DNA of 35,354 nt from assembly GCA_017883315.1 (NCBI GenBank), contig JADGNW010000297.1, forward strand, positions 1-35,354, written 5' to 3'. This document shows, in pieces, positions 6,021 through 32,959 of this stretch. The notes under the pieces were generated by a model. The model did no database searches. It worked only from the letters and a program-made list of their open reading frames with translations, and was not told the origin of the DNA. The DNA comes from Blastocatellia bacterium. Lineage in GTDB: Bacteria; Acidobacteriota; Blastocatellia; UBA7656. Every line of letters begins with the position of its first letter. The stretch's first letter is position 1. The translations under genes and the position numbers were made by a program.

Positions 6021-6360
6021 GACATCGTTGCTCTCAAACTGCTCACAAGTTTCCTCGCGGCCTTCGAGACACACTGCTCGAAGGCCGCATCCGTCTTTAA
6101 ACGCTATCGGTCGGTTGCATATCAAATTTCGCTCGTCAGTCTTTTTGGCCACTCCGGCCCACGATGATCCGTCTTCATCCCAAATCTGTTTGCCGGTTCT
6201 ATTACTCCGCCTAGACTCGACGAGCACATTCTTGTTTGTGCGAGGCACGACGACGGAACGAAGTTGTGAGACTTGGGAGGGTCTCGGTGTTTCGCCAATG
6301 ACTAAATTGATTCAGCCCGCTCTGGAAGAAAACGAATTCTCAGTTTCAAGGAGAAGACAA
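6021..6360. other. Intergenic region before the first Oar-like receptor
   Basis: Apart from the terminator at 6057-6098 and the dispersed motif at 6173-6190 I see nothing firm. The receptor frame is open through this region (from 6028), but the sequence upstream of 6361 does not look coding: it lies within the terminator hairpin and gives no signal peptide. Confidence 0.5.
6057..6098 (+). terminator. Hairpin terminator after the JAB-like gene
   Basis: GCGGCCTTCGAG (6057-6068) and CTCGAAGGCCGC (6077-6088) form a perfect 12-bp stem with an 8-base loop, 36 bp past the stop codon, followed by a short CGTCTTT tract. It separates the JAB-like gene from the receptor gene. Confidence 0.75.
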
Positions 6361-9300
6361 ATGAGGCACCTTAGAAAAATGAAATCGCTGGCAGTCACCG
6401 CAGCATCTCTGATGATCGCGGTATTGCTGCTACCGCTATTCAGTAGTTCGGTTCTTGCGCAGTCCAGTAAAGGAATAATCGTAGGAACTACAAAGGACCC
6501 GTCTGGCGCAGTAGTCGACGGGGCCAGCATCAAGATCACTAACAAGGCTACGAATACATCACGCGAAACAACTACGACCGCAGAGGGCGGCTATCGCCTG
6601 GACGCGGTCGACCCGGGTTCATACAAAGTCGAGGCAACAGCGGGCGGCTTCAAGACCAGTACGCGTGACAACGTGGTCGTGGAAGCAGCCCAGGCTACGA
6701 CGATTGACTTTGCTTTTGAAGTGGGCGCCCAGACAGAAGTGGTCAACGTCAACGCAGATTCGAGCGTGATTCTGCAAAAGCAGGACGGCGCTCGTGCAAG
6801 CACTCTTGAGTCTCGCCAGATAGTTGACCTGCCCGTGGGAGCGCTCAATCCGGTGAATCTTGTCTTCACGCTTCCGGGCGTCACCAATCCCGGAGTGCTC
6901 GCAGGCGGATTCGTCCAGGGCACCGAGTTCAACATCAACGGGTTGAGAGCGCGCGCCAACAACCAGTTGATCGACGGCGCCGACAACAATGATAACTCGA
7001 TCACCGGCCAGCAGCTTCAACCGGGTCTGCGCGACGGATTCAAAGAGGTGACCGTGTTGGGCGGCGACAACTCCGCCGAATACGGCCGCGCCGGCGGCGC
7101 GGTGATCAATGTCGTCACCAAGAGCGGAACGAACCAGTTCCACGGTTCTGTTTACGACGTGATCGACACCAGCGCGCTTTCGTCGTTGAGCGCGGGCCAG
7201 AAGGCAAACGAAGGTCTAACCTCTGTGCCGGTGTACATCCAGAACGCGTTCGGTTTCTCCTTTGGCGGGCCGATAAAAAAGGACAAGCTGTTTTTCTTCG
7301 GGACGTTTCAGCCGACGCTGACTCGCATCGGGGCCGCAAACGGCTCGGCGGTCATTCCTACAGAACAGGGCTTCAACACCCTTCGCTCGCTTTTCCCGCA
7401 AGGCGCAAGCGCGAACCTGGATCGCTACCTCGGCGTTGTTGGAGGCCTTCGCGGCGCGACCAATACGTTCAATGTGCCCCTGGGAGGCGGACGGCCCGAC
7501 GTGCAGTTTGGAACAGTGACCGCCGCCGCACCCGCGCCCATCAACACCTATGATCTTCTAGCGCGCGTCGATTGGACGCCGAATGAGAGAGACAACTTCT
7601 CGGCGCGTTATATCTTCAACAACCAGGTGGTCACCAACCAGTTCCCCACGCCGTTTCAGGGCTTCGCTGTCGATGTTCCGGGGCGCGTGCAGAACCTCTA
7701 CGGCAACTACACTCGCATTCTCTCGTCGAGAATGACCAACGAGCTGCGGTTTTCGTATGGACGATTCAACGTGCTGTTCGGCGCTCAGGATCCAGCGGCG
7801 CTCAACTTTGGACCGCAGTTCCTGTTTTCAGGCGCTTCCATCACCGGCGTAGGCATACTCGGCGGTCTCACGACCACCTTCTTCCCTCAAGGCCGCGTGT
7901 TCAACAACTATCAGATTCAGGACACGATCACCTACACCAGCGGCGCACACACCATCCGAGCCGGGACGGACATGATGCGCCAGGCCGCTAAGCAGTTCGT
8001 TCCCTTCAACGCGCAGGGCACGCTGACCTTCTCAGCGGGCGGCGGGTTCCCGGCTTTCGGCAATTTCGTTGATGGATTCTCGGGGACGCAGGGAACATTC
8101 GCGGCGATTACGTTTGGCAGCCCGGTGACTCATCCCAACGCGTTTCAACAAGCGTATTTCGTCAACGACACGTGGCGGGTCAAGCCGAACCTGAGTTTGA
8201 ATCTGGGCCTTCGATACGAGAACTACGGGACGCGTTACAACGTGGTGCCGTTCCCGGCCTTCGCGGGCTTCGACAAACCGTTTGACGCTGTAGCGAAGCA
8301 GAAGGGTGACAACAACAACTTCGCTCCACGGGTGAGCTTCGCGTACACGCCGCACCTCGCGAGCTGGCTGTTCGGCGAAGACAAGACGGTGATTCGTGGT
8401 GGAGTTGGAGTCGGTTACGATGTCTACTTCAACAACATCCTGAGCAACACCGCGGCTTCGCCTCCGAACGCGTTTGGAGTCTCGCTTCTGGGCTCGACCG
8501 CAGGCGGCCGCGGACTCGCGAACGCAGGCGTCCACTCATTGCCAACGACGGGTTCTCCAAATCCGAAAGCTGCGGTCACCAGTATCGACCCGAACCTGGT
8601 CAACCCGATGACCTGGACCTGGAACCTTGACGTCCAGCGCGAGTTGCCGGGCAACTTCATCGTCGATGCGGCGTATGTTGGAACCCGCGGAATTCGACTG
8701 TTCATCAATGAGCAGTTGAACCCCGGAGTTAATAACGTGCGGCTGCATCCCGACCGCGGATCGATCGTGCTTCGAACAAACGGAGGCGATTCGATCTACC
8801 ACTCTCTGCAAACGCGTGTCGAGCGCGGATTCAAGAACGGCCTGCTCTTCCGCTTTGCATATACCTACTCGAAGGCGATAGACGACGTGAACAGCGAAGT
8901 CTTCGTCACGTCAGGCGGCGCAAGCAGGGCGTCGAACCCGTTTGATCGCAGGGCAGACCGCAGTGTGGCGAGCTTCGATGTTCCGCATCGAGGCGTGCTG
9001 TCTTTCATCTACGATGTTCCGGGTCCAAAGCGAGGGTTTCTCGGACAGGTTGGCGGTCTCTGGACGCTAGGAGGGATCTATCGGATACAGTCAGGGTCGG
9101 TCGAGACTCCCTTTGTCGGAGGGATCGATCTGAACGGCGATCTGGAGAACACCAATGACCGGCCGGCTATCGCGAACCTCAACGCACCTCCGACATCGGT
9201 GGCCATTCTCGCGTCGTTGCTGGGCGCCACGTCGCCGACCGGCTACGTTGATGCGAACGGGACTCCGGTGAATCCGGCGAACGTCCGATACATTGTGGAT

Positions 9301-9609
9301 CCAGCGATTCGCACTAACATCGCGGGCCGCAACACCCTGCGCGGGAACATAACTAACACAATGGACCTGAGCTTGAACAAGGGGTTCAGGCTGCCGTTTG
9401 AAGGTCACAAGCTCGAAGTGCGCTTTGATCTCTTCAACGTCTTCAACCACCCCAACTTCACCTGGGCGTTCTTGGGAGCCGACAATAGCAACGGCGACGT
9501 GACGAATCCGTTCTTCAACAACGTCCGGTTGAACGACGGCGGAATCACGGGACCGGTCGGCACGCAGGTCGGCCGTTACGGGCGGGTTCAGTTGCGCTAC
9601 AGCTTCTGA
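6361..9609 (+). CDS. Oar-like TonB-dependent outer-membrane receptor
   Basis: The chosen ATG has AAGGAGAAG at 6348-6356 and gives a 1082-residue precursor with a signal peptide (residues 1-33, ending SSVLAQ). In-frame alternatives are 6298 and 6028. Residues about 36-120 form a carboxypeptidase-regulatory-like beta-sandwich (GTTKDPSGAVVDGASIKI ... GGYRLDAVDPGSYKVEA). A plug-like domain follows (LPGVTNPG, INGLRARANNQLIDGADNND, EYGRAGGAVINVVTKSGTN), and then a long beta-barrel with NDTWRVKPNLSLNLGLRYE and FDLFNVFNHPNF. It ends in an aromatic residue (RVQLRYSF), as outer-membrane barrels do. Substrate is unknown; related receptors take up glycans, peptides or siderophores or act in secretion. 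Its terminator lies at 9650-9680. Confidence 0.93.
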   Translation: MRHLRKMKSLAVTAASLMIAVLLLPLFSSSVLAQSSKGIIVGTTKDPSGAVVDGASIKITNKATNTSRETTTTAEGGYRLDAVDPGSYKVEATAGGFKTSTRDNVVVEAAQATTIDFAFEVGAQTEVVNVNADSSVILQKQDGARASTLESRQIVDLPVGALNPVNLVFTLPGVTNPGVLAGGFVQGTEFNINGLRARANNQLIDGADNNDNSITGQQLQPGLRDGFKEVTVLGGDNSAEYGRAGGAVINVVTKSGTNQFHGSVYDVIDTSALSSLSAGQKANEGLTSVPVYIQNAFGFSFGGPIKKDKLFFFGTFQPTLTRIGAANGSAVIPTEQGFNTLRSLFPQGASANLDRYLGVVGGLRGATNTFNVPLGGGRPDVQFGTVTAAAPAPINTYDLLARVDWTPNERDNFSARYIFNNQVVTNQFPTPFQGFAVDVPGRVQNLYGNYTRILSSRMTNELRFSYGRFNVLFGAQDPAALNFGPQFLFSGASITGVGILGGLTTTFFPQGRVFNNYQIQDTITYTSGAHTIRAGTDMMRQAAKQFVPFNAQGTLTFSAGGGFPAFGNFVDGFSGTQGTFAAITFGSPVTHPNAFQQAYFVNDTWRVKPNLSLNLGLRYENYGTRYNVVPFPAFAGFDKPFDAVAKQKGDNNNFAPRVSFAYTPHLASWLFGEDKTVIRGGVGVGYDVYFNNILSNTAASPPNAFGVSLLGSTAGGRGLANAGVHSLPTTGSPNPKAAVTSIDPNLVNPMTWTWNLDVQRELPGNFIVDAAYVGTRGIRLFINEQLNPGVNNVRLHPDRGSIVLRTNGGDSIYHSLQTRVERGFKNGLLFRFAYTYSKAIDDVNSEVFVTSGGASRASNPFDRRADRSVASFDVPHRGVLSFIYDVPGPKRGFLGQVGGLWTLGGIYRIQSGSVETPFVGGIDLNGDLENTNDRPAIANLNAPPTSVAILASLLGATSPTGYVDANGTPVNPANVRYIVDPAIRTNIAGRNTLRGNITNTMDLSLNKGFRLPFEGHKLEVRFDLFNVFNHPNFTWAFLGADNSNGDVTNPFFNNVRLNDGGITGPVGTQVGRYGRVQLRYSF

Positions 9610-20174: not shown

Positions 20175-23100
20175 ATGAAAGTCAAAAGGAGAGTATTGAA
20201 GGAGGCACTCGCAAGCCTTCTTACAGCTTTTCTACTCTTGTCTCTAGGCTCGGCCTCAGTGTTCGCACAGACTGAGACCGGCCAGATCATTGTGAAAGCA
20301 ACCGATCCAACCGGCGCGGTCGTTCCCGGCGCTACTGTCAACGTCACCCAGGTTAATACCGGACGAAAGCTCCCGCAGACCACAACAAGTGAGGAGGGCT
20401 CCGCAACGTTCACCAACCTTCAGCCCGGTCGGTATGAAGTTACAGTATCGGGAGCCGGGTTCGCGGCCTATACGCAGCAGGTAGAGGTGACGGTCGGCGC
20501 GAAGATAAGCATCGAGGCCACTCTCTCGGCGACGGCCAGGGGAGAAACAGTTACGGTAGTAGCGGGTGAGGGAGGCGTCGAGGTCAACACTCAAAATCAG
20601 GAGTTGTCCAACGTCGTCTCGGCAAAACAGATCACAGAGATGCCCACGCTCACCAGAAACATCTATGACCTGGTAGGGCTGTCGGGCAACGTGGCCCAAG
20701 ATCCGCAGGGATCAAGCGTGCGCGGGGTTGGCTTTAGCATCAACGGCCAGCGCTCCTCGAGCACGGCGATTCTGCTTGACGGCGGTGACAACACCGACAC
20801 ATTCACGGCAACCGCAGGCCAAAGTGTACCGCTCGATTCCGTGCAAGAGTTCCGCGTCATCACGAGCAACTTCTCTGCCGAGTACGGGCGCGCCAGCGGC
20901 GGCGTCGTTAACGTCGCCACCAAAGGCGGATCTAACACTTTCCATGGCTCGCTCTACGAGTTCAACCGCATTTCGGCACTGGCGTCCAACAGCTTCAACA
21001 ACAACGCCAACAGCGTTCCGAAGGGCGTGTTCACACGAAACCAGTTCGGCTATTCCATCGGCGGGCGCATCATTAAGGACAAACTCTTCTTCTTCAGCAG
21101 CACCGAATGGACGCGCGTCCGGAGCGCGGAGGAAGCCATCAACCTCGTGCCGACGCCGCAACTGATCGCTGCTTCAAATGCCAACACGCAGGCGTTCTTC
21201 AGTGCGTTCGGTCAGCTTCCGACACCGATCAACGGCACGATCCTCACTGTCCACGATGTCACGGTAGCGCGCGGTCTGGCTGCGGGCAGCGCCTTCACGA
21301 ATCTGCCAGCGAATCTCCCGGCCTTCGGTCAGGTGCGCTACTCGATTCCGAGCGACGTGGGCGCAGGATTTCCAACTGATACCTATCAAACGGTAAATCG
21401 CGTTGACTGGAACTGGAGCGACAAGACGCAGATCTATGGCCGCTATGCCTTGGAGAGCATTATCAATCCTCCAGGGGCGGTCAGCGTCAGCCCGTATCAG
21501 GGCTACAGCACCATCAACACCAATTTCAACAACAACTTCCTGCTGTCGGTAACGCACAGCTTTTCGTCCAACCTGGTTTCGCAGACCAAAGGTGTCTACA
21601 ACCGGTTAAACAACGCGCAGCCGCTTTCCAGTCGCGGTGATGTGCCGACGCTGTATTTCTTCTCGAGCGGCGCCGGGAGCATCGAAGGCTTTCCCGTGGC
21701 TCTGCCCGGCTTCCTGCCCTTCGCACCCGGGAGCGGCGTGCCGTTCGGCGGCCCGCAGAACCTGCTCCAGTTCTTTGAAGACCTAAACTGGACGAAGGGC
21801 AAACATCAGTTCCGGTTTGGCGGCCAGTACGTCTATATCGCCGACAATCGACTCTTCGGTGCTTACGAGACGGCGAGCGAAGCGCTAGGCAGTAACTACA
21901 ACACTGCGCTTTCAAACTTTGTCTCCGGTCAGCTTACGCAGTTCCAGGCCGCAGTTGATCCGCAAGGCAAGTTCCCGGGCCAGTCCGTGACGCTGCCGGT
22001 CAGTCCGCCGCAGTTTACCCGCAACAATCGTTACAGCGACTGGGCGGTTTATGCTAATGACGCATGGCGGGTCAAGCCGCGCGTGACGCTCAACCTCGGC
22101 GTGCGTTATGAGTATTACGGCACTCAGCACAACACTGACCCGAAGCTGGACTCGAACTTCTACTTCGGCCAGGGCACGACGCTCTTTGATCGCATCCGCA
22201 ACGGCAGCGCGCTGGTTGCGCCCAACAGCCCGATTGGCAAACTCTGGGCTTCTGATCCGAACAACCTCGCGCCGCGTTTGGGCCTCGCTTGGGACGTGTT
22301 TGGCGACGGCAAGATGAGCGTTCGCGGCGGCTACGGCATGGCTTACGAGCGTAACTTCGGCAACGTGACGTTCAACGTCATTCAAAACCCACCCGGCTAC
22401 GCGGTGGTTTCGCTGGTCGCACCAACGGACGTCGCTTCGATCCCGATCACCACCAATAACGCCGGCCCGCTGGCCGGCTCCAGCGGCACGAAAATTTTGC
22501 CTGCAACCAGCTTGCGCGCCGTTGACCCGAACATCAAGACCGCTTACGCCCACTTCTGGAGCGCGGCGATCGAGCGCCAACTCGGCAGCACGGTCTTGTC
22601 GGTTGAATACTCCGGCTCGGCTGGCCGCAACCTGTACTCGATTGCCAACATCAACCGCAGCGGCACGGGCCTCCAGTATCTGGGCAGCTCGTCACACAAC
22701 CCGTTCACCAACGCAGCATCAAGCCGTTTGAACGGCCAGTACAGCAATATCAACTTCCGAGGCAGCGATGGCCGCTCCAACTACGACGCGATGATCGTCT
22801 CGGTTGAGAGCAACGCTTTCCGTAAGGTGGGCCTGCACTTTACGGGCCGTTACACCTATTCCCAGGCGAGAGACAATCTCAGCTCAACGTTCAGCGAAGG
22901 TCAGATCGGTGGCTTCGGACTCGGGTACGTCGATCCGTTCAACCCCGGTTTGGATTACGGGCGTGCGGACATTGACATCCGCCATCGTATGACCGCGAGT
23001 TGGAACTGGGAGATCCCGGCTCCGAAGGGTGGTAATGAGTTCGCTAAGAGACTGATCGGCGGTTGGGAGTTGACGGGCATCTTCACGGCTCGCAGCGGCG

Positions 23101-23561
23101 CGCCGTTCAGCGTCTATGATTGCTCGTTCGCGATCACGGCGTGCGCGCGCCTGGTTAACGGCCCGGACGGTTCGGTGGCAACGACCGGGACGAGCCACCC
23201 GGCGGAGGATCCGACGGGAGTGCCGAATCACCTGGTCTACATTGACCTGAGCAGAACGAATGCCATCGCCTTCTTTAACCCGATTGCGGGAAATGGAGAG
23301 GTGGGACCGTTCCCGGCCGACATGACCAAGCGCAACATATTCAATGGGCCGGGCGCGTGGAATCTCGATTCGGGCCTCTACAAGCGCATTAGCTTTAACG
23401 AGCGTTTTAGCTTGCAACTGCGCCTTGAAGCCTACAACGTGTTCAACCACGCGAATATGTTTGTGAGCGGTGGCGAGGCCGACGTAAGTTCGCTCGACTT
23501 TGTCCCCGCATTCCGCAATGGCCGCCGAAACGTGCAGTTGGCCGCGAAGCTCCTATTCTAG
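20175..23561 (+). CDS. Oar-like TonB-dependent outer-membrane receptor
   Basis: A 1128-residue precursor. AGGAGG at 20162-20167, seven bases before the ATG, fixes the start. The signal peptide is residues 1-32 (LLTAFLLLSLGSASVFAQ). Residues about 35-115 form a carboxypeptidase-regulatory-like domain (VKATDPTGAVVPGATVNV ... LQPGRYEVTVSGAGF). A plug-like domain carries INGQRSSSTAILLDGGDN and EYGRASGGVVNVATKGG, and a barrel follows with NDAWRVKPRVTLNLGVRYEY and RLEAYNVFNHANMF. The end is LAAKLLF with a terminal aromatic residue. It is the same family as the receptor at 6361 but clearly diverged. Substrate unknown. No TonB or ExbBD gene is in the window. A hairpin terminator lies at 23590-23619. 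Confidence 0.93.
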   Translation: MKVKRRVLKEALASLLTAFLLLSLGSASVFAQTETGQIIVKATDPTGAVVPGATVNVTQVNTGRKLPQTTTSEEGSATFTNLQPGRYEVTVSGAGFAAYTQQVEVTVGAKISIEATLSATARGETVTVVAGEGGVEVNTQNQELSNVVSAKQITEMPTLTRNIYDLVGLSGNVAQDPQGSSVRGVGFSINGQRSSSTAILLDGGDNTDTFTATAGQSVPLDSVQEFRVITSNFSAEYGRASGGVVNVATKGGSNTFHGSLYEFNRISALASNSFNNNANSVPKGVFTRNQFGYSIGGRIIKDKLFFFSSTEWTRVRSAEEAINLVPTPQLIAASNANTQAFFSAFGQLPTPINGTILTVHDVTVARGLAAGSAFTNLPANLPAFGQVRYSIPSDVGAGFPTDTYQTVNRVDWNWSDKTQIYGRYALESIINPPGAVSVSPYQGYSTINTNFNNNFLLSVTHSFSSNLVSQTKGVYNRLNNAQPLSSRGDVPTLYFFSSGAGSIEGFPVALPGFLPFAPGSGVPFGGPQNLLQFFEDLNWTKGKHQFRFGGQYVYIADNRLFGAYETASEALGSNYNTALSNFVSGQLTQFQAAVDPQGKFPGQSVTLPVSPPQFTRNNRYSDWAVYANDAWRVKPRVTLNLGVRYEYYGTQHNTDPKLDSNFYFGQGTTLFDRIRNGSALVAPNSPIGKLWASDPNNLAPRLGLAWDVFGDGKMSVRGGYGMAYERNFGNVTFNVIQNPPGYAVVSLVAPTDVASIPITTNNAGPLAGSSGTKILPATSLRAVDPNIKTAYAHFWSAAIERQLGSTVLSVEYSGSAGRNLYSIANINRSGTGLQYLGSSSHNPFTNAASSRLNGQYSNINFRGSDGRSNYDAMIVSVESNAFRKVGLHFTGRYTYSQARDNLSSTFSEGQIGGFGLGYVDPFNPGLDYGRADIDIRHRMTASWNWEIPAPKGGNEFAKRLIGGWELTGIFTARSGAPFSVYDCSFAITACARLVNGPDGSVATTGTSHPAEDPTGVPNHLVYIDLSRTNAIAFFNPIAGNGEVGPFPADMTKRNIFNGPGAWNLDSGLYKRISFNERFSLQLRLEAYNVFNHANMFVSGGEADVSSLDFVPAFRNGRRNVQLAAKLLF

Positions 23562-23723: not shown

Positions 23724-24539
23724 ATGAGGACAATTCTTCGTAGCCTTTGTACAGTCACTATGATCACACTCTCTGTGTCCGCGGGCGCACAGGATAAGGA
23801 AAAACGGTTGGACGCGTCGGAAATCATCGCGAGCCATCTGGAGGCCTGCGGCGGCAGGGCGGCGCTCTCGAAATTCAAATCGCGCGTCGCTGTCGGAACA
23901 GTTCAAAAAGAAAGCGCGGCCGCTGTGCCGTTTGCGATTATGTCGGAGGCGCCTAACCGCGTGTCTGCCATATATCAGTTTCAGGATACTACCCCATGGC
24001 AACTCACCTACGACGCAGGCAAGACTGTTTTTCGTCCTCAGTTTCCCCGTGCCTACGCTCGTATTGAGGAAAAGTACCGCGAGATGCTCGGCACCGGCAC
24101 GCTTTTCAATGGCATCTCGCTATACAATATCCTGCTTCAAGGCGAGGGTTCAGGTGTCAAGTTTGAGGGCAAGGGCACGAAGAAAGTTAAAGATCGGCTG
24201 GCTTACGTCGTAGAAGCGAAACTCGGTAAGAGCCTCAACGTCAGACTGTATTTCGACACGAAAACGTTCATGTGGGTCCGCACGGATTACGGGCGCACAA
24301 CTGTTACGCACCCGATGAGCACGTTCACCAATGACGCCACCTCCAAAGACGAAGAGACGACCTATGATTTCTATGTCGAGACTTCGGATTTCAAACAGGT
24401 AGACGGCGTGAAACTGCCGTTCCGAGTCGAGATGGTGACGACTCGTCCCATACTGCGGGAGAAGGATTCGGGCATCGTTGTAGGGTTAATCAGTGAATAT
24501 CACCACAACATTCCAATTGACCCCAAGATGTTTCATTAA
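23724..24539 (+). CDS. Exported LolA-like (outer-membrane lipoprotein-sorting-like) protein
   Basis: A 271-residue protein with a signal peptide (MRTILRSLCTVTMITLSVSA, cleavage near GAQ) and a body that resembles the LolA/LolB half-barrel fold as seen in proteins annotated as outer-membrane lipoprotein-sorting proteins: a repeated pattern of beta-strands (FKSRVAVGTVQ ... VPFAIMSEAPNRV ... VVEAKLGKSLNVRLYFD ... VDGVKLPFRVEM). The helical segment ASEIIASHLEACGGRAAL is typical of the N-terminus. It probably binds a lipid or lipidated molecule in the periplasm. It is not a canonical LolA, and no LolB or LolCDE is nearby. GGAGGG (23711-23716) is seven bases from the ATG. A palindrome lies upstream. 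Confidence 0.65.
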   Translation: MRTILRSLCTVTMITLSVSAGAQDKEKRLDASEIIASHLEACGGRAALSKFKSRVAVGTVQKESAAAVPFAIMSEAPNRVSAIYQFQDTTPWQLTYDAGKTVFRPQFPRAYARIEEKYREMLGTGTLFNGISLYNILLQGEGSGVKFEGKGTKKVKDRLAYVVEAKLGKSLNVRLYFDTKTFMWVRTDYGRTTVTHPMSTFTNDATSKDEETTYDFYVETSDFKQVDGVKLPFRVEMVTTRPILREKDSGIVVGLISEYHHNIPIDPKMFH

Positions 24540-24676
24540 GGATGAATCGCGCGCTGCGCGGCGCGCGTCAAAAAAGGGCCGCAATATTGCCACTTTTATG
24601 CGCTTTGCCACCCTGCGGAAAGGGGCTGCGTACTAGCGGTGGAGGAGTTCGGCAGTGCTAGAACTGAGGAGCTGCC

Positions 24677-26173
24677 TTGACTGACATTCTCGCGGCGTCC
24701 CCTCGTGGCGCGATACATTTCATATTTACACAGATCATGCGCAACGCTTTTTCTTTGATTGCGATCGTTGCTCTTTTCCCGGTGTCCTACGGGGCCCAGT
24801 CGCGCGCCGCACCAAAACCGCGGCCGGCTGTAGTGTATCTATCTTATGAAGACGCGCGTCCGGTCCTCGATTCGCTAAAGGAAGTCTTGCCGTCGGAATT
24901 GGGTGATGCGTCGCCGGAAAAATTACCACTTGTGTGGCGCGATTGGGTAGCACGGCGCGACCATGATATTCGTTCGCGTCTCAACAAGGGTGATGAAGAC
25001 TCTCTTGTGAACTTCCTGCTTTTTGGGACGTCCTTCACGCTCCGCCCGCGGCTGACCCTCGCAGACATAGCGCGCGCAGGCCAGAAAGAGAACTCCGAAG
25101 AGGCGACCAAAGCCTTCGCATTGATTCAAGCGCGCGCGGAGGATCTGATCCAGGGTATTGTCGCGCCGAGAGACAATGAGCGATTGCTGTTTGCGCGGCG
25201 GCTGTATGAAGCGAAAGGCTACGATTTGAACAACCCAGCGGCGCTTCAGCAAGCGAAGATTGATTTGATCAAGAACCTGGCGCGGGTGCTAGAAGAGCAA
25301 GCGGGCTATGGGCGACTGCTCGATTCCGCGAGGCTGATGGGCGACACGTCACAGGAACTCGCCCTGCGGTCGAAGCTCTACAAAGACCGCGGTTTGAGTT
25401 CGGACACGTCGCTGAAGCCGAACTACGCGATCGAGCGCGCGCTTGCGTCAATTAAGGCCAACGCTTGGCTCGCGCGCGCAAGCGTGCGACGTGTAGCGAT
25501 AGTCGGACCTGGCCTCGATTTCACCGACAAACAGGATGGCTTTGACTTCTATCCACAACAAACGATTCAACCATTCGCCATCGTCGATTCGCTGACGAGA
25601 CTAGGTCTTGCGAAGCCGGACGACTTGCGCATTGTCACCTTCGATCTTAGTCCGCGTATCAACGATCACCTTGCGCAGGCGCGAGCACGCGCCGCGAAGG
25701 GTGCGTCCTATGTTGTGCAGGTGCCGCGCGATCTGGAATGGAACTCGGAGCTGGCGGCGTACTGGTCGCGGTTCGGCGATCGGATCGGGGTTCCGGTGAT
25801 GCCCGTAACCGTTCCCGCCGCGCTCGGCATGTTGAAAGTCAGGGCCGTGAGTATTCGTCCGGCCGTTGTTTCCGGAATAGACTCGGAAGATGTGAACATA
25901 GTTTTGCAGCATCTGAACCTGGCGCCTCCCGAATCATTCGATCTCATCATCGCAACGAACATCCTTGTATACTACGACACCCTCGAGCAGAGCCTTGCGC
26001 TGGCGAACATCGAACGGATGCTTAGGCCGGGCGGCTTCCTGCTTTCTAACAACGCGCTGCTCGAGCTCCCCAGCTCTCGAATGCGCTCGGTGGGTTATGA
26101 GACTGTTGTCTACTCAGACAAGCCGAACGACGGTGATCACATTGTCTGGTATCAACGCTCCGCTGACAAATAA
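24677..26173 (+). CDS. Probable exported protein with a methyltransferase-like C-terminal domain
   Basis: The TTG at 24677 has GAGGAG five bases upstream and is chosen; an ATG at 24737 (MRNAFSLIAIVALFPVSYGA) gives a more typical signal peptide. Either way the protein has a hydrophobic N-terminal export signal. The body has an all-helical region (about 55-265) followed by a class I S-adenosylmethionine methyltransferase-like domain: motif I VAIVGPGLDF (about 273-282), an acidic second strand (TFDLS), and FDLIIATNILVYYD (about 421-434) with the later MLRPGGFLLSNN. The layout recalls CheR-type or related methyltransferases. A periplasmic methyltransferase would lack SAM, so the location or the activity needs testing. 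No homologue can be named from memory. Confidence 0.65.
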   Translation: MTDILAASPRGAIHFIFTQIMRNAFSLIAIVALFPVSYGAQSRAAPKPRPAVVYLSYEDARPVLDSLKEVLPSELGDASPEKLPLVWRDWVARRDHDIRSRLNKGDEDSLVNFLLFGTSFTLRPRLTLADIARAGQKENSEEATKAFALIQARAEDLIQGIVAPRDNERLLFARRLYEAKGYDLNNPAALQQAKIDLIKNLARVLEEQAGYGRLLDSARLMGDTSQELALRSKLYKDRGLSSDTSLKPNYAIERALASIKANAWLARASVRRVAIVGPGLDFTDKQDGFDFYPQQTIQPFAIVDSLTRLGLAKPDDLRIVTFDLSPRINDHLAQARARAAKGASYVVQVPRDLEWNSELAAYWSRFGDRIGVPVMPVTVPAALGMLKVRAVSIRPAVVSGIDSEDVNIVLQHLNLAPPESFDLIIATNILVYYDTLEQSLALANIERMLRPGGFLLSNNALLELPSSRMRSVGYETVVYSDKPNDGDHIVWYQRSADK

Positions 26174-26299: not shown

Positions 26300-27385
26300 A
26301 TGTACACCTCGCTCGCATCACTTCAGCAACTCTTCTCCAGGTACTCTCTTCCTGTTGCCCTTCGCCTGGGGCTGCTGATTGCGATATGCTCTTCGACAGC
26401 TTTCGCCCAAATCGGAGGTATCGATTCTGATCCCGGCGAACCTGGAACTGGCGGTGTCAATACGATACAGGGAAACATCTTTGTGCCTGGCGGTCGCCGA
26501 CTGGGTCTGCGGGCGCAGGTCAAGCTCCGCCCCGTAACCGGCGGCGCCGAACAGTATCAACTATCAGACGACAGCGGAGCGTTTTCATTCAGAAGACTGA
26601 CCGGCGGTTCGTACACTCTGATCATAGATGCTGGAAAGGACTACGAGGTCACAGTCGAATCGGTGGACATAATCCAGCCGGCCCGGCGTCGAGGTGACCC
26701 CGGCATTGTTGTGCCGGTGAACATCGAATTGAGACTGAAGTCGAATGTGAGTCCAGGCAAAGTAGGGACGGTTGATGCGTCGGGAGGCGGAGCCCCCGAA
26801 GCCGCAGTTGACCTCTACAAGCAAGCCGTTGAGTCTTCAAAGGCCGGCGATAGGAAGAAAGCCATAGAACAGTTGAAGCAGGCCGTCACGATATACCCAA
26901 ATTTCATGACCGCGCTGAACGAGCTGGGCGTTCAGTACATGGCTCTCCAGGAGTGGCGGAAGGCTGCCGAGGCTCTGCGTGCGGCGCTTAAGATCGGGCC
27001 CGAAGCTTTTCACCCGCGCCTCAACTACGGCATCGTGCTATTTCAGCTGAAGGATTATAAGGCGGCGGCCGCTGAGCTTCAGATTGCTGTTCAGAAGGAT
27101 AGCTCGTCGGTGGTGGCTCATTTCCAATTTGGCCGCGCTCTGGTTAACGTCGGCAATTACGACGCCGCTGAGAAGGAATTGAAACAGTCAATCAGCATCG
27201 ATGGCGGAGAATCCGCGGAAGCGCACCGATATCTGGGCGCGGTCTACATTGAAAAGCGCGACAGCGTGCGCGCCGCCGATGAGTTGGATGCGTACCTGAA
27301 GCTGGCGCCAAACGCGAAAGACGCGGATAGGATTCGAGCCATAATCAAGGATCTGCGTAGCCAGGCATCAGCGAAACATGGGTAG
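26300..27385 (+). CDS. Exported TPR protein with a carboxypeptidase-regulatory-like domain
   Basis: A 361-residue protein. The signal peptide covers residues 1-36 (ALRLGLLIAICSSTAFAQ). Residues about 55-140 form a carboxypeptidase-regulatory-like beta-sandwich (IQGNIFVPGGRRLGLRAQ ... SGAFSFRRLTGGSYTLII). At least four TPR motifs follow (about 165-345), such as FMTALNELGVQYMALQEW and PRLNYGIVLFQLKDYKAA. TPR proteins of this kind act as periplasmic scaffolds, but the partner is unknown. The start has GAAGGAGG (26286-26293), a very strong ribosome site. The combination of the two domains in one small exported protein is frequent in this kind of genome. Confidence 0.85.
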   Translation: MYTSLASLQQLFSRYSLPVALRLGLLIAICSSTAFAQIGGIDSDPGEPGTGGVNTIQGNIFVPGGRRLGLRAQVKLRPVTGGAEQYQLSDDSGAFSFRRLTGGSYTLIIDAGKDYEVTVESVDIIQPARRRGDPGIVVPVNIELRLKSNVSPGKVGTVDASGGGAPEAAVDLYKQAVESSKAGDRKKAIEQLKQAVTIYPNFMTALNELGVQYMALQEWRKAAEALRAALKIGPEAFHPRLNYGIVLFQLKDYKAAAAELQIAVQKDSSSVVAHFQFGRALVNVGNYDAAEKELKQSISIDGGESAEAHRYLGAVYIEKRDSVRAADELDAYLKLAPNAKDADRIRAIIKDLRSQASAKHG

Positions 27386-30170: not shown

Positions 30171-30523
30171 CGATATGCTCCGCATTGTCAGATACGCGAC
30201 CTGATCAGGCCTTTACTCTGCCTTGAGCCGGCGGGTCCAGCGTTGCGTACTATTGCTTCGTTGGCGCCGCGCTCCCTTCGTCCGCTCGTCGAGGGTTTGG
30301 ATCCGTTTGGTCAGACTATTTTTATCACAGAACCGCTGTGACGATGAAGTGATGCCCACCCCCGACGAAGCGCGTTCGAGGACCCTTCAAGTTGAACGCT
30401 TCGAGACTTCAGCCGTTAGAGTCCTGGTCCTCGATCCAACATCGGCAGAGGCAAGACGAACAATCACGCCCGCCGCAGAGCTTTCTTAGTTGGAACTCAT
30501 CCTTTAATCTAATCATCTTTGAT
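30171..30523. other. Intergenic region before the GH57 gene
   Basis: The 353 bp between two divergent genes hold no gene I can support. The open frame from 30223 is Arg-rich and looks like noise, and the GH57 frame is open from 30392 but only from 30524 resembles the family. A short inverted repeat GCGTTC/GAACGC (about 30370-30397) is present. No confident promoter. Confidence 0.5.
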
Positions 30524-32959
30524 ATGAACAAGCGTTTCGTTTGCATCCACGGCCACTTTTATCAGCCTCCGCGCGAGAATCCCTGGCTCGAAGACGTCGA
30601 GGTCGAGGACTCGGCCGCGCCCTATCACGACTGGAACGAGCGAATCACCACCGAGTGCTACGCCCCGAATGCTGTCTCCCGTATCCTCGACGGCAGCGGG
30701 AAGATTATCGAACTGGTCAATAACTACGAGAAGATGAGCTTTAACTTCGGGCCGACGCTCTTGTCGTGGCTCGAGAGACATCGCGGCGAGGTCTACAACG
30801 AAGTCATCGAAGCGGATCGCATCAGTCTTAGTGCCCACGCCGGACACGGCAATGCAATCGCTCAATGCTACAACCACGCGATCATGCCGCTGGCGTCGGA
30901 GCGCGACAAGCTGACGCAGGTTCGATGGGGAATTGCCGATTTCCAGTTCAGATTCGGCCGCAAGCCCGAAGGTATGTGGCTTCCCGAAACCGCAGTCGAC
31001 CTCGCGACGCTACAGGTTCTCGCCGAACACGACATCAGGTTCACCATCCTTTCTCCTCATCAAGCCGAAGCCGTTCGCGCACCGGGCGAGGACTGGCAAG
31101 ACGTGTCGCACCGCCGCATCGATCCTACTCGGGCTTATCGCTGCCCGCTCGAGAACGGAAAGCATATCGATCTGTTCTTCTACAATGCCCACGTGTCACA
31201 CGACATCTCTTTCGAGAGCTTGCTCAGAAGCGGTGACAGATTCGCTGAGCGATTGGCCTCCAGCTTTGATGATCGTCGCGACCATGCTCAATTGGTGAAC
31301 GTGGCGACGGACGGCGAAACCTTTGGCCATCATTCCAAGTTTGGCGAGATGGCCCTGGCTTACGCGATCGGCAAGATCGAGCGTGAAGGGATCGCGCGAA
31401 TAATGAACTACGGCGAGTATCTCGCGCTGCACCCGCCAACGCACGAAGTAAAGATAAGCGAGAACACTTCGTGGAGCTGCGGGCACGGCGTCGAACGCTG
31501 GCGAAGTGACTGCGGCTGCAATAGCGGCAACACGCATTGCCATCAGCGCTGGAGAGGACCGTTGCGGCAGGCGCTGGATTGGCTTCGAGCAAAGCTCGAC
31601 ATAGTCTTCGAACACGAGGGTTCGGTCTTCTTGAAAGACGTGTGGATGGCACTCGATGACTACATCTTTCTTATGCTTGACCGCTCGGCTCAAGCTCGCG
31701 AAGCGTTTCTGGATATGCACGCTCGGCGTCAATTGTCGGAAGTCGACAGGGTCAATGTCTGGCGCTTGCTTGAAATGCAACGGCACGCTGCGTTGATGTA
31801 TACAAGCTGCGGCTGGTTCTTCGATGACATATCCAACATCGAAACCGTTAAGAACATCGAGTACGCGGCGAGGGCGATTCAGCTTGCGCGTGAGGCATCG
31901 GGCACCGATCTGGAGCCACAATTCATCGCGAATCTCGAGAAGGTGCCCGGCAGCAAGCCTCAGCTTTCCGATGGCGCGAAGGTCTATGACCAACTGGTGA
32001 AGCCTTCAATTACCAACCTCAAGAAGGGCCTGGCGCACTACGGAATCAGCTCGCTGGTGGAAGAGTACGCGCCCGAGCAACGAATCTTCTCATTCGAATT
32101 TGATCGTCAGGACTACCGTCGCGAGAAAACCCTTGGGCGAACGCTCGCGATGGGAGCTGTCAACGTGCGTTCTGAGATAGCCCGAGAACAGTTTGAAGGG
32201 ATGTTCGTTGTGCTGCACCTGGGCGGCTACGATTTTCACTGCGCGGTCCGCGAGCGCTTGTCTGCTGATGAGTATGAAAAGCTAATAGAAACGTTATTTC
32301 GCAGCTTCAACGAAGACTCAACTCGAAACCTGTTACGCGCGATCGATGCCGGCGTCGACGGCGACAGTTTCGCGCTCAAAGATCTGTTCGACGATGAGCG
32401 CAGAAAGATCGGCCGGCTGCTTTTGGGAGACGCATTGGAGCGATCCCGCGATCACTACCGGCGCATCTACGAAGAGAGCCGCGATGTGATGAGGCTGCTT
32501 GCGAGCATGAAGATTCCGGTGCCCGATAGTTTGAAAAAGCCGGCAGAGTACGTGCTGAGTCAGAGGCTCGATCAGGCATGCTCGGAGCTGAAGAGTGAAG
32601 CACGCTCAGAGGCGCAACTCAGCGAGGCGGCGGCTTCCATCTTGCGGGAAGCTGAATCGCTCGGCTGCGAGGTTGACCTCTCAGGCTTGAAAGGCGCGCT
32701 CGAAGAGTTTGTGCATTCCAGCCTCGTCGCGTATCGCGCGCATCGCGATGAAGCAAAAGCCGAATCGGCGATTCATTTCCTGCGACTCGCCGAGCAATTG
32801 GGTGTCAGTCTCGATTTGTGGCGATCGCAGAATCTGTTTTGGGCGCTCCTAGATGAGTCTGACGAGGAGATTGTAACCGCCACAGCATTAATTGTTGAGT
32901 TGCGCGACAGACTCAGTTTCAGTGAGCGAACGGCTCGCACAAGGCTTCTCGGTATTTAG
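30524..32959 (+). CDS. Glycoside hydrolase family 57 protein with DUF3536
   Basis: An 811-residue protein that starts with HGHFYQPPRENPWLE, the GH57/DUF3536 signature, at the ATG 30524; the frame extends upstream to 30392 but that part does not match the family. GH57 motifs: WLPETAVD with the likely nucleophile glutamate, and ATDGETFGHH with the likely catalytic aspartate. The catalytic domain covers about residues 1-330, and the rest (to about 650) corresponds to DUF3536, rich in helices. A Cys-containing region CGHGVERW ... DCGCNSGNTHC may bind a metal. GH57 enzymes act on alpha-glucans. No ribosome site is visible at the ATG, so the message could be leaderless. It is convergent with glgB across a short insert. 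Confidence 0.92.
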   Translation: MNKRFVCIHGHFYQPPRENPWLEDVEVEDSAAPYHDWNERITTECYAPNAVSRILDGSGKIIELVNNYEKMSFNFGPTLLSWLERHRGEVYNEVIEADRISLSAHAGHGNAIAQCYNHAIMPLASERDKLTQVRWGIADFQFRFGRKPEGMWLPETAVDLATLQVLAEHDIRFTILSPHQAEAVRAPGEDWQDVSHRRIDPTRAYRCPLENGKHIDLFFYNAHVSHDISFESLLRSGDRFAERLASSFDDRRDHAQLVNVATDGETFGHHSKFGEMALAYAIGKIEREGIARIMNYGEYLALHPPTHEVKISENTSWSCGHGVERWRSDCGCNSGNTHCHQRWRGPLRQALDWLRAKLDIVFEHEGSVFLKDVWMALDDYIFLMLDRSAQAREAFLDMHARRQLSEVDRVNVWRLLEMQRHAALMYTSCGWFFDDISNIETVKNIEYAARAIQLAREASGTDLEPQFIANLEKVPGSKPQLSDGAKVYDQLVKPSITNLKKGLAHYGISSLVEEYAPEQRIFSFEFDRQDYRREKTLGRTLAMGAVNVRSEIAREQFEGMFVVLHLGGYDFHCAVRERLSADEYEKLIETLFRSFNEDSTRNLLRAIDAGVDGDSFALKDLFDDERRKIGRLLLGDALERSRDHYRRIYEESRDVMRLLASMKIPVPDSLKKPAEYVLSQRLDQACSELKSEARSEAQLSEAAASILREAESLGCEVDLSGLKGALEEFVHSSLVAYRAHRDEAKAESAIHFLRLAEQLGVSLDLWRSQNLFWALLDESDEEIVTATALIVELRDRLSFSERTARTRLLGI

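Follow-up and report, generated by a model that had tools for sequence, protein, structure and literature searches.

Class I methyltransferases are regarded as cytoplasmic because SAM is, and we know of no SAM in the periplasm. The closest described relative of the protein studied here is CheR (PF01739; structures 1af7, 5ftw and 5xlx), of which D154, N212 and N231 are what we take to be the SAM/SAH contacts in structure 1af7. The catalytic residues of CheR are R98 and Y235 (PMC3447774). A CheR-like domain that lacks the catalytic residues but still binds SAM and SAH has been described in CheWS of Treponema denticola, where it serves as a sensor (PMC10653840). On the side of transporters, Oar of Myxococcus xanthus is a TonB-dependent transporter that the protease PopC needs for its secretion (PMC6434023). 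A limited search of the open-access literature found no description of a periplasmic bacterial methyltransferase or of a family such as the one presented below, and "secreted methyltransferase" returned only papers on pathogens and plant parasites.

The window analysed here is the whole stretch of 35,354 nucleotides from contig JADGNW010000297.1 of a Blastocatellia bacterium (Acidobacteriota). What is new here is the pairing of an exported CheR-like gene with an Oar-like TonB-dependent receptor. To judge by the sequences of the window protein and its homologues, it is very probable that CheR-like identity, export and receptor pairing hold together. The gene lies in an open frame at 24677-26173 on the forward strand, with an ATG in frame at 24737:

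24737 to 26173, forward strand: protein with a CheR-like methyltransferase fold, predicted to be exported; its length is 478 aa if translation starts at the ATG and 498 aa if it starts at the TTG (24677).
24666 to 24679, forward strand: alternative start read from the sequence, a GAGGAG sequence resembling a ribosome-binding site (24666-24671) followed by the TTG codon (24677-24679).

No clear ribosome-binding site precedes the ATG, and most homologues start at or near that codon; the TTG has the better site, in disagreement with the starts of the homologues. Since the same hydrophobic segment, FSLIAIVALFPVSYGA, lies downstream of both codons, the question of export is independent of the choice between them. 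Residues are numbered below from the ATG.

The protein can be divided into two domains:

24836 to 25459, forward strand: helical N-terminal domain, about residues 34-241 (alignment, model, hhalign).
25469 to 26161, forward strand: CheR-like class I methyltransferase domain, about residues 245-475 (Pfam, profile, hhalign, Foldseek).

A first-pass annotation, made from the letters of the window, had read a class I SAM-methyltransferase signature from the stretches VAIVGPGLDF, NILVYYD and LRPGG. They are found at residues 253-262, 408-414 and 429-433, and the spacing of 140 residues that it gave between the first two is about 145 here. The signature is borne out by the Pfam model Methyltransf_11, which matches the window protein above its cut-off (25.0 vs 21.2 bits), and by the kinship to CheR described next; CheR as closest relative and the TonB-receptor pairing were both absent from that annotation. 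PF01739 scores 21.7 bits in the window protein, under its curated cut-off of 27, and 29.4 bits in one homologue; the Pfam CheR model is matched by 16 of 18 family members (best 1.1e-8). When the family profile was compared with the PDB, CheR from B. subtilis came first (E=2e-6), with NodS and further CheR chains behind it. With hhalign, the family aligned to CheR sequences of related genomes at 93% (E=3.5e-7, 190 columns), each of its two subfamilies alone reached about 91%, and the controls, namely the CheR alignment reversed and ten versions of it with shuffled columns, all stayed at or below 0.2%. Two AlphaFold models, built from three sequences each, are poor (pLDDT 55 and 57, with low TM-scores to every target) and serve as support only. 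The fold search that the first-pass annotation had suggested after structure prediction did, even with these low-confidence models, lead to SAM methyltransferases: CheR ranked first or close to first, and the top 50 matches listed were SAM methyltransferases or proteins closely homologous to them. The fold assignment rests mainly on the profiles, with the models in support.

The hhalign signal to CheR is located in the C-terminal part. The helical N-terminal domain, which had been reported as unrecognised, still has no Pfam match, and it aligned to CheR at only 0.2%, so the N-terminal domain of CheR is unlike it. It is conserved within the family all the same, R81, G85, T101, E148, R149, R218, D223 and T224 being invariant or nearly so.

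The positions that bear on cofactor binding and catalysis were transferred from CheR through the hhalign correspondence, and the CheR numbering was checked on the PDB-match alignment, with chain residue 1 counted as residue 11:

25388 to 25408, forward strand: RGLSSDT motif, residues 218-224, directly before the methyltransferase domain (hhalign, alignment).
25505 to 25519, forward strand: motif I equivalent GPGLD, residues 257-261, in which all 38 members have G257 and G259 (alignment).
25643 to 25645, forward strand: D303 at the end of strand 2, equivalent to CheR Asp154, invariant in 38 of 38 (hhalign, alignment).
25895 to 25897, forward strand: N387, equivalent to CheR Asn212, kept in 33 of 38 (hhalign, alignment).
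25955 to 25972, forward strand: T407-N408-x-x-x-Y412, equivalent to CheR Arg230-Asn231...Tyr235, with T kept in 38, N in 37 and Y in 37 of 38 (hhalign, alignment).

Conservation of the SAM-binding residues across homologues, which the first-pass annotation had proposed to check, is thus found at the CheR-equivalent positions in 33 to 38 of the 38 members. P258, D261 and D223 are kept in 36 of 38 and T224, which aligns with CheR Thr94, in 35 of 38; CheR Arg98 has no counterpart in either the hhalign result or the 38-sequence alignment. Over the same 38 sequences, motif I is atypical (GPGxD), the acid before the first Gly being V or I and the third Gly being Asp, and it carries a 15-residue insertion with conserved residues of its own (D270, Q275 and Q278-P279-F280). 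The alignments indicate that the pocket for an adenosyl ligand is under strong selection and that the substrate need not be that of CheR. The family thus shares with CheR a class I domain with the DLS, N...FDLI..TN...YY and PGG blocks and equivalents of D154, N212, N231 and Y235. It differs from CheR by its export signal and its other helical N-terminal domain, by the missing Arg98 and the changed motif I with its insertion, by a place beside TonB receptors and not beside chemosensory genes, and, for the window protein, by a score below the Pfam CheR cut-off. Because Arg98, the CheR N-terminal domain, signs of a cytoplasmic location and a chemosensory context are all missing, the window protein is to be read as CheR-like and not as CheR.

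Such a combination of kept and lost positions would also suit a protein that binds and does not catalyse, with a pocket that holds SAM, SAH or another adenosyl compound outside the cytoplasm and reports it, or passes it on, to the paired receptor. This SAM/SAH sensor is the main rival to an enzyme, and its precedent is the CheR-like domain of CheWS, which likewise combines a CheR-like fold and a kept ligand pocket with an incomplete catalytic set (PMC10653840). The pocket is kept here while Arg98 is not, and the gene travels with a transporter. However, CheWS is a cytoplasmic protein of chemotaxis arrays that carries a CheW domain (PMC10653840), whereas the present family has export signals and retains the equivalent of catalytic Tyr235 in 37 of 38 members, and the many invariant polar residues in both domains go beyond the needs of a simple binder. 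We regard a purely binding role as possible and somewhat doubtful. It could also be that the methyltransferase fold was reused for a ligand or a chemistry without SAM, in which case the missing periplasmic SAM would pose no problem. The altered GPGxD motif and the insertion with its own conserved residues would fit such a reuse, as would the fact that, to our knowledge, SAM is not known outside the cytoplasm, but the adenosine-holding positions of CheR (D154, N212, N231) are all kept, and we consider this reading unlikely.

The N-terminus of the protein carries the following feature:

24737 to 24796, forward strand: predicted signal peptide, residues 1-19 or 1-20 (MRNAFSLIAIVALFPVSYGA), with cleavage probably near SYG/AQ, the cut falling between G and A (hydropathy, charge, -3/-1 criteria).

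The N-terminal hydrophobic segment, already taken for an export signal in the first-pass annotation, is kept in every homologue with an intact N-terminus and has the character of a signal peptide when scored by our own hydropathy, charge and -3/-1 criteria. Among 37 members, the mean net charge is +2.5 before the core and +0.7 after it (positive before in 35), the uncharged core run has a median of 16 residues, and a lenient test finds a -3/-1 site in every one of the 37, with Gln at +1 in 17. The Bacteroidetes Q-rule for A/Q sites was considered for these and not relied on, as the paper confines it to Bacteroidetes and does not mention Acidobacteria. No further segment shows clear transmembrane hydropathy (maximum 19-residue average 1.7). 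No segment of the N-terminal kind is found in CheR proteins of related genomes, where the maximum 11-residue hydropathy is about 1, and Cys makes up 0.14% of the mature chains (none in 22 of 38) vs 0.32% in the receptors and 0.91% in CheR of the same group. These properties are those of Sec-type signal peptides and suggest that the family members are soluble after cleavage.

The same segment might instead stay uncleaved as an anchor with its N-terminus out, leaving the methyltransferase domain on the cytoplasmic side with ordinary SAM at hand. The window protein considered alone has a charge of +3 after the segment (SRAAPKPRP) vs +1 before it, counted from the ATG, as expected for such an orientation, and L055, L057 and L078 show the same pattern. 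Over the 37 members, however, the charge balance favours an N-in topology, the core is short and followed by cleavage-like sites, often with Gln at +1, the mature chains are nearly free of cysteine, and the linked gene encodes an outer-membrane receptor. On these grounds we hold a cytoplasm-facing anchor to be very unlikely. It was one of three options left by the first-pass annotation, and we retain the other two, namely another use of the fold and an enzyme working on something unexpected. In a distant member, L081 (G353:C1), the signal resembles the twin-arginine type (TRRQVLALAVATAVPGSAAWGA); since proteins exported by Tat are already folded, a bound cofactor could in principle travel out with this one.

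The neighbours of the gene in the window are, in order, the receptor and a 271-aa protein upstream and a TPR protein downstream:

20175 to 23561, forward strand: Oar-like TonB-dependent receptor (CarboxypepD_reg, plug, OMP_b-brl_4 barrel), presumed cognate partner.
23724 to 24539, forward strand: 271-aa protein whose N-terminus resembles a signal peptide and which matches nothing in Pfam or NCBIfam.
26300 to 27385, forward strand: protein that combines an N-terminus resembling a signal peptide with a CarboxypepD_reg-like stretch and TPR repeats.

The term Oar-like is read from the domain order and not from a comparison with Oar. A receptor gene lies at most 1.1 kb from the family gene in 27 of 38 homologous loci and 1.2 kb from it in the window. 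In total, 28 of 39 family genes stand beside an Oar-like TonB-dependent receptor vs about 2-4% expected by estimate; eleven loci have no adjacent receptor. Such receptors are common in the carrier genomes, each of which gives 47 to 74 profile matches, fragments included, and a binomial estimate for the pairing is below 1e-20 even at a chance rate of 8%, a figure that is only indicative because the loci share ancestry. The receptor occurs in three arrangements: on the strand of the family gene, either upstream or downstream of it, or in convergent orientation. When the neighbours were clustered, it was the only widely shared gene (26 loci), the TPR protein being found in 5 and the 271-aa protein in 3; the TPR protein is common to the window and at least three other loci. 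The 271-aa protein is also near the family gene in L021 and L058, there on the opposite strand. Elsewhere in the window, a second TonB-dependent receptor of OMP_b-brl_4 type (6028-9609, forward strand) has no exported CheR-like gene beside it, and a gene at 30392-32959 (forward strand) encodes a protein in which DUF3536 comes after a glycoside hydrolase family 57 domain.

A receptor tree places most linked receptors in what appear to be three groups, separate from the background receptors of the same genomes. The first, to which the window belongs, holds L021, L053, L056, L058, L059 and L082 as well, despite differing orientations; the second is made of L064-L069, and the third corresponds to the distant subfamily with L074-L077. 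The linked receptors of L054, L062, L071 and L072 are placed outside these groups. Receptor clades mostly follow the subgroups of the exported protein. From the groups and the outliers taken together, the pairing looks long-lived with some exchange. The example of Oar, an Oar-type transporter that acts with another protein outside the cytoplasm and is needed for PopC secretion in Myxococcus (PMC6434023), makes it conceivable that the receptor might secrete the CheR-like protein instead of importing for it; PopC, unlike the partner here, is a protease.

Clear members occur in about 23 of 396 sampled Acidobacteriota genomes, one of them decayed, and are scattered over many families; this count excludes short CheR-type matches. 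Those low-scoring matches (40-90 profile positions, E about 1e-4 to 1e-8) cover only the C-terminal block common to CheR and other methyltransferases and were rejected as members. A first search of 58 relatives had given a match in 16 genomes. A single-sequence query of genome contigs returned two close relatives, from an Acidobacteria bacterium and a Pyrinomonadaceae bacterium, and relatives were found neither in viral contigs nor in plasmids. The window's own genome has two members, both near receptors. Its second copy, L054 (G000:C327), is 56% identical (tblastn), and the receptor alongside differs in type from that of the window. L082 (G240:C4) and L079 (G212:C22) are split by a frameshift or deletion, and L089/L090 (G014) are fragments cut at contig ends. 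The broken copies suggest that some lineages are losing the gene.

Our best explanation is that the protein would carry a cleavable signal peptide of Sec type for passage across the inner membrane and, as a soluble mature chain made of the conserved helical domain and the CheR-like class I methyltransferase domain, would act as a dedicated periplasmic or surface partner of the adjoining Oar-like receptor. SAM or a similar adenosyl ligand would be bound outside the cytoplasm, and the protein may be an enzyme with Tyr412 at its active site, acting on a transported ligand or on an envelope protein. Sec moves unfolded chains, with which a bound cofactor cannot ride along, so SAM would have to be met outside; the adenosyl ligand could be taken from the surroundings, with the receptor as a conceivable route, or derive from material that has leaked or been set free by cell lysis. 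We rank catalysis first because Tyr412 and the many invariant polar residues resemble an active site. We give this full explanation, including catalysis outside the cytoplasm, a probability of roughly 0.4, and count against it that SAM is not known in the periplasm, the atypical motif I, the lack of Arg98, the poor models, the eleven receptor-less loci, the few linked receptors placed outside the main clades and the charge of the window protein. Location, SAM binding, catalysis, substrate and SAM source are points that we infer and do not read directly from the gene. A more specific form, in which a secreted CheR-like enzyme would carry out SAM-dependent methylation outside the cytoplasm with SAM or the substrate imported by a dedicated TonB-dependent receptor, seems to us rather doubtful.

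By joining export signals, the SAM-pocket residues of CheR and a TonB-receptor pairing in many Acidobacteriota lineages, the family makes the existence of usable periplasmic SAM a directly testable question. Each acidobacterial genome holds dozens of orphan TonB receptors, and the family also offers a lead to the role of some of these.
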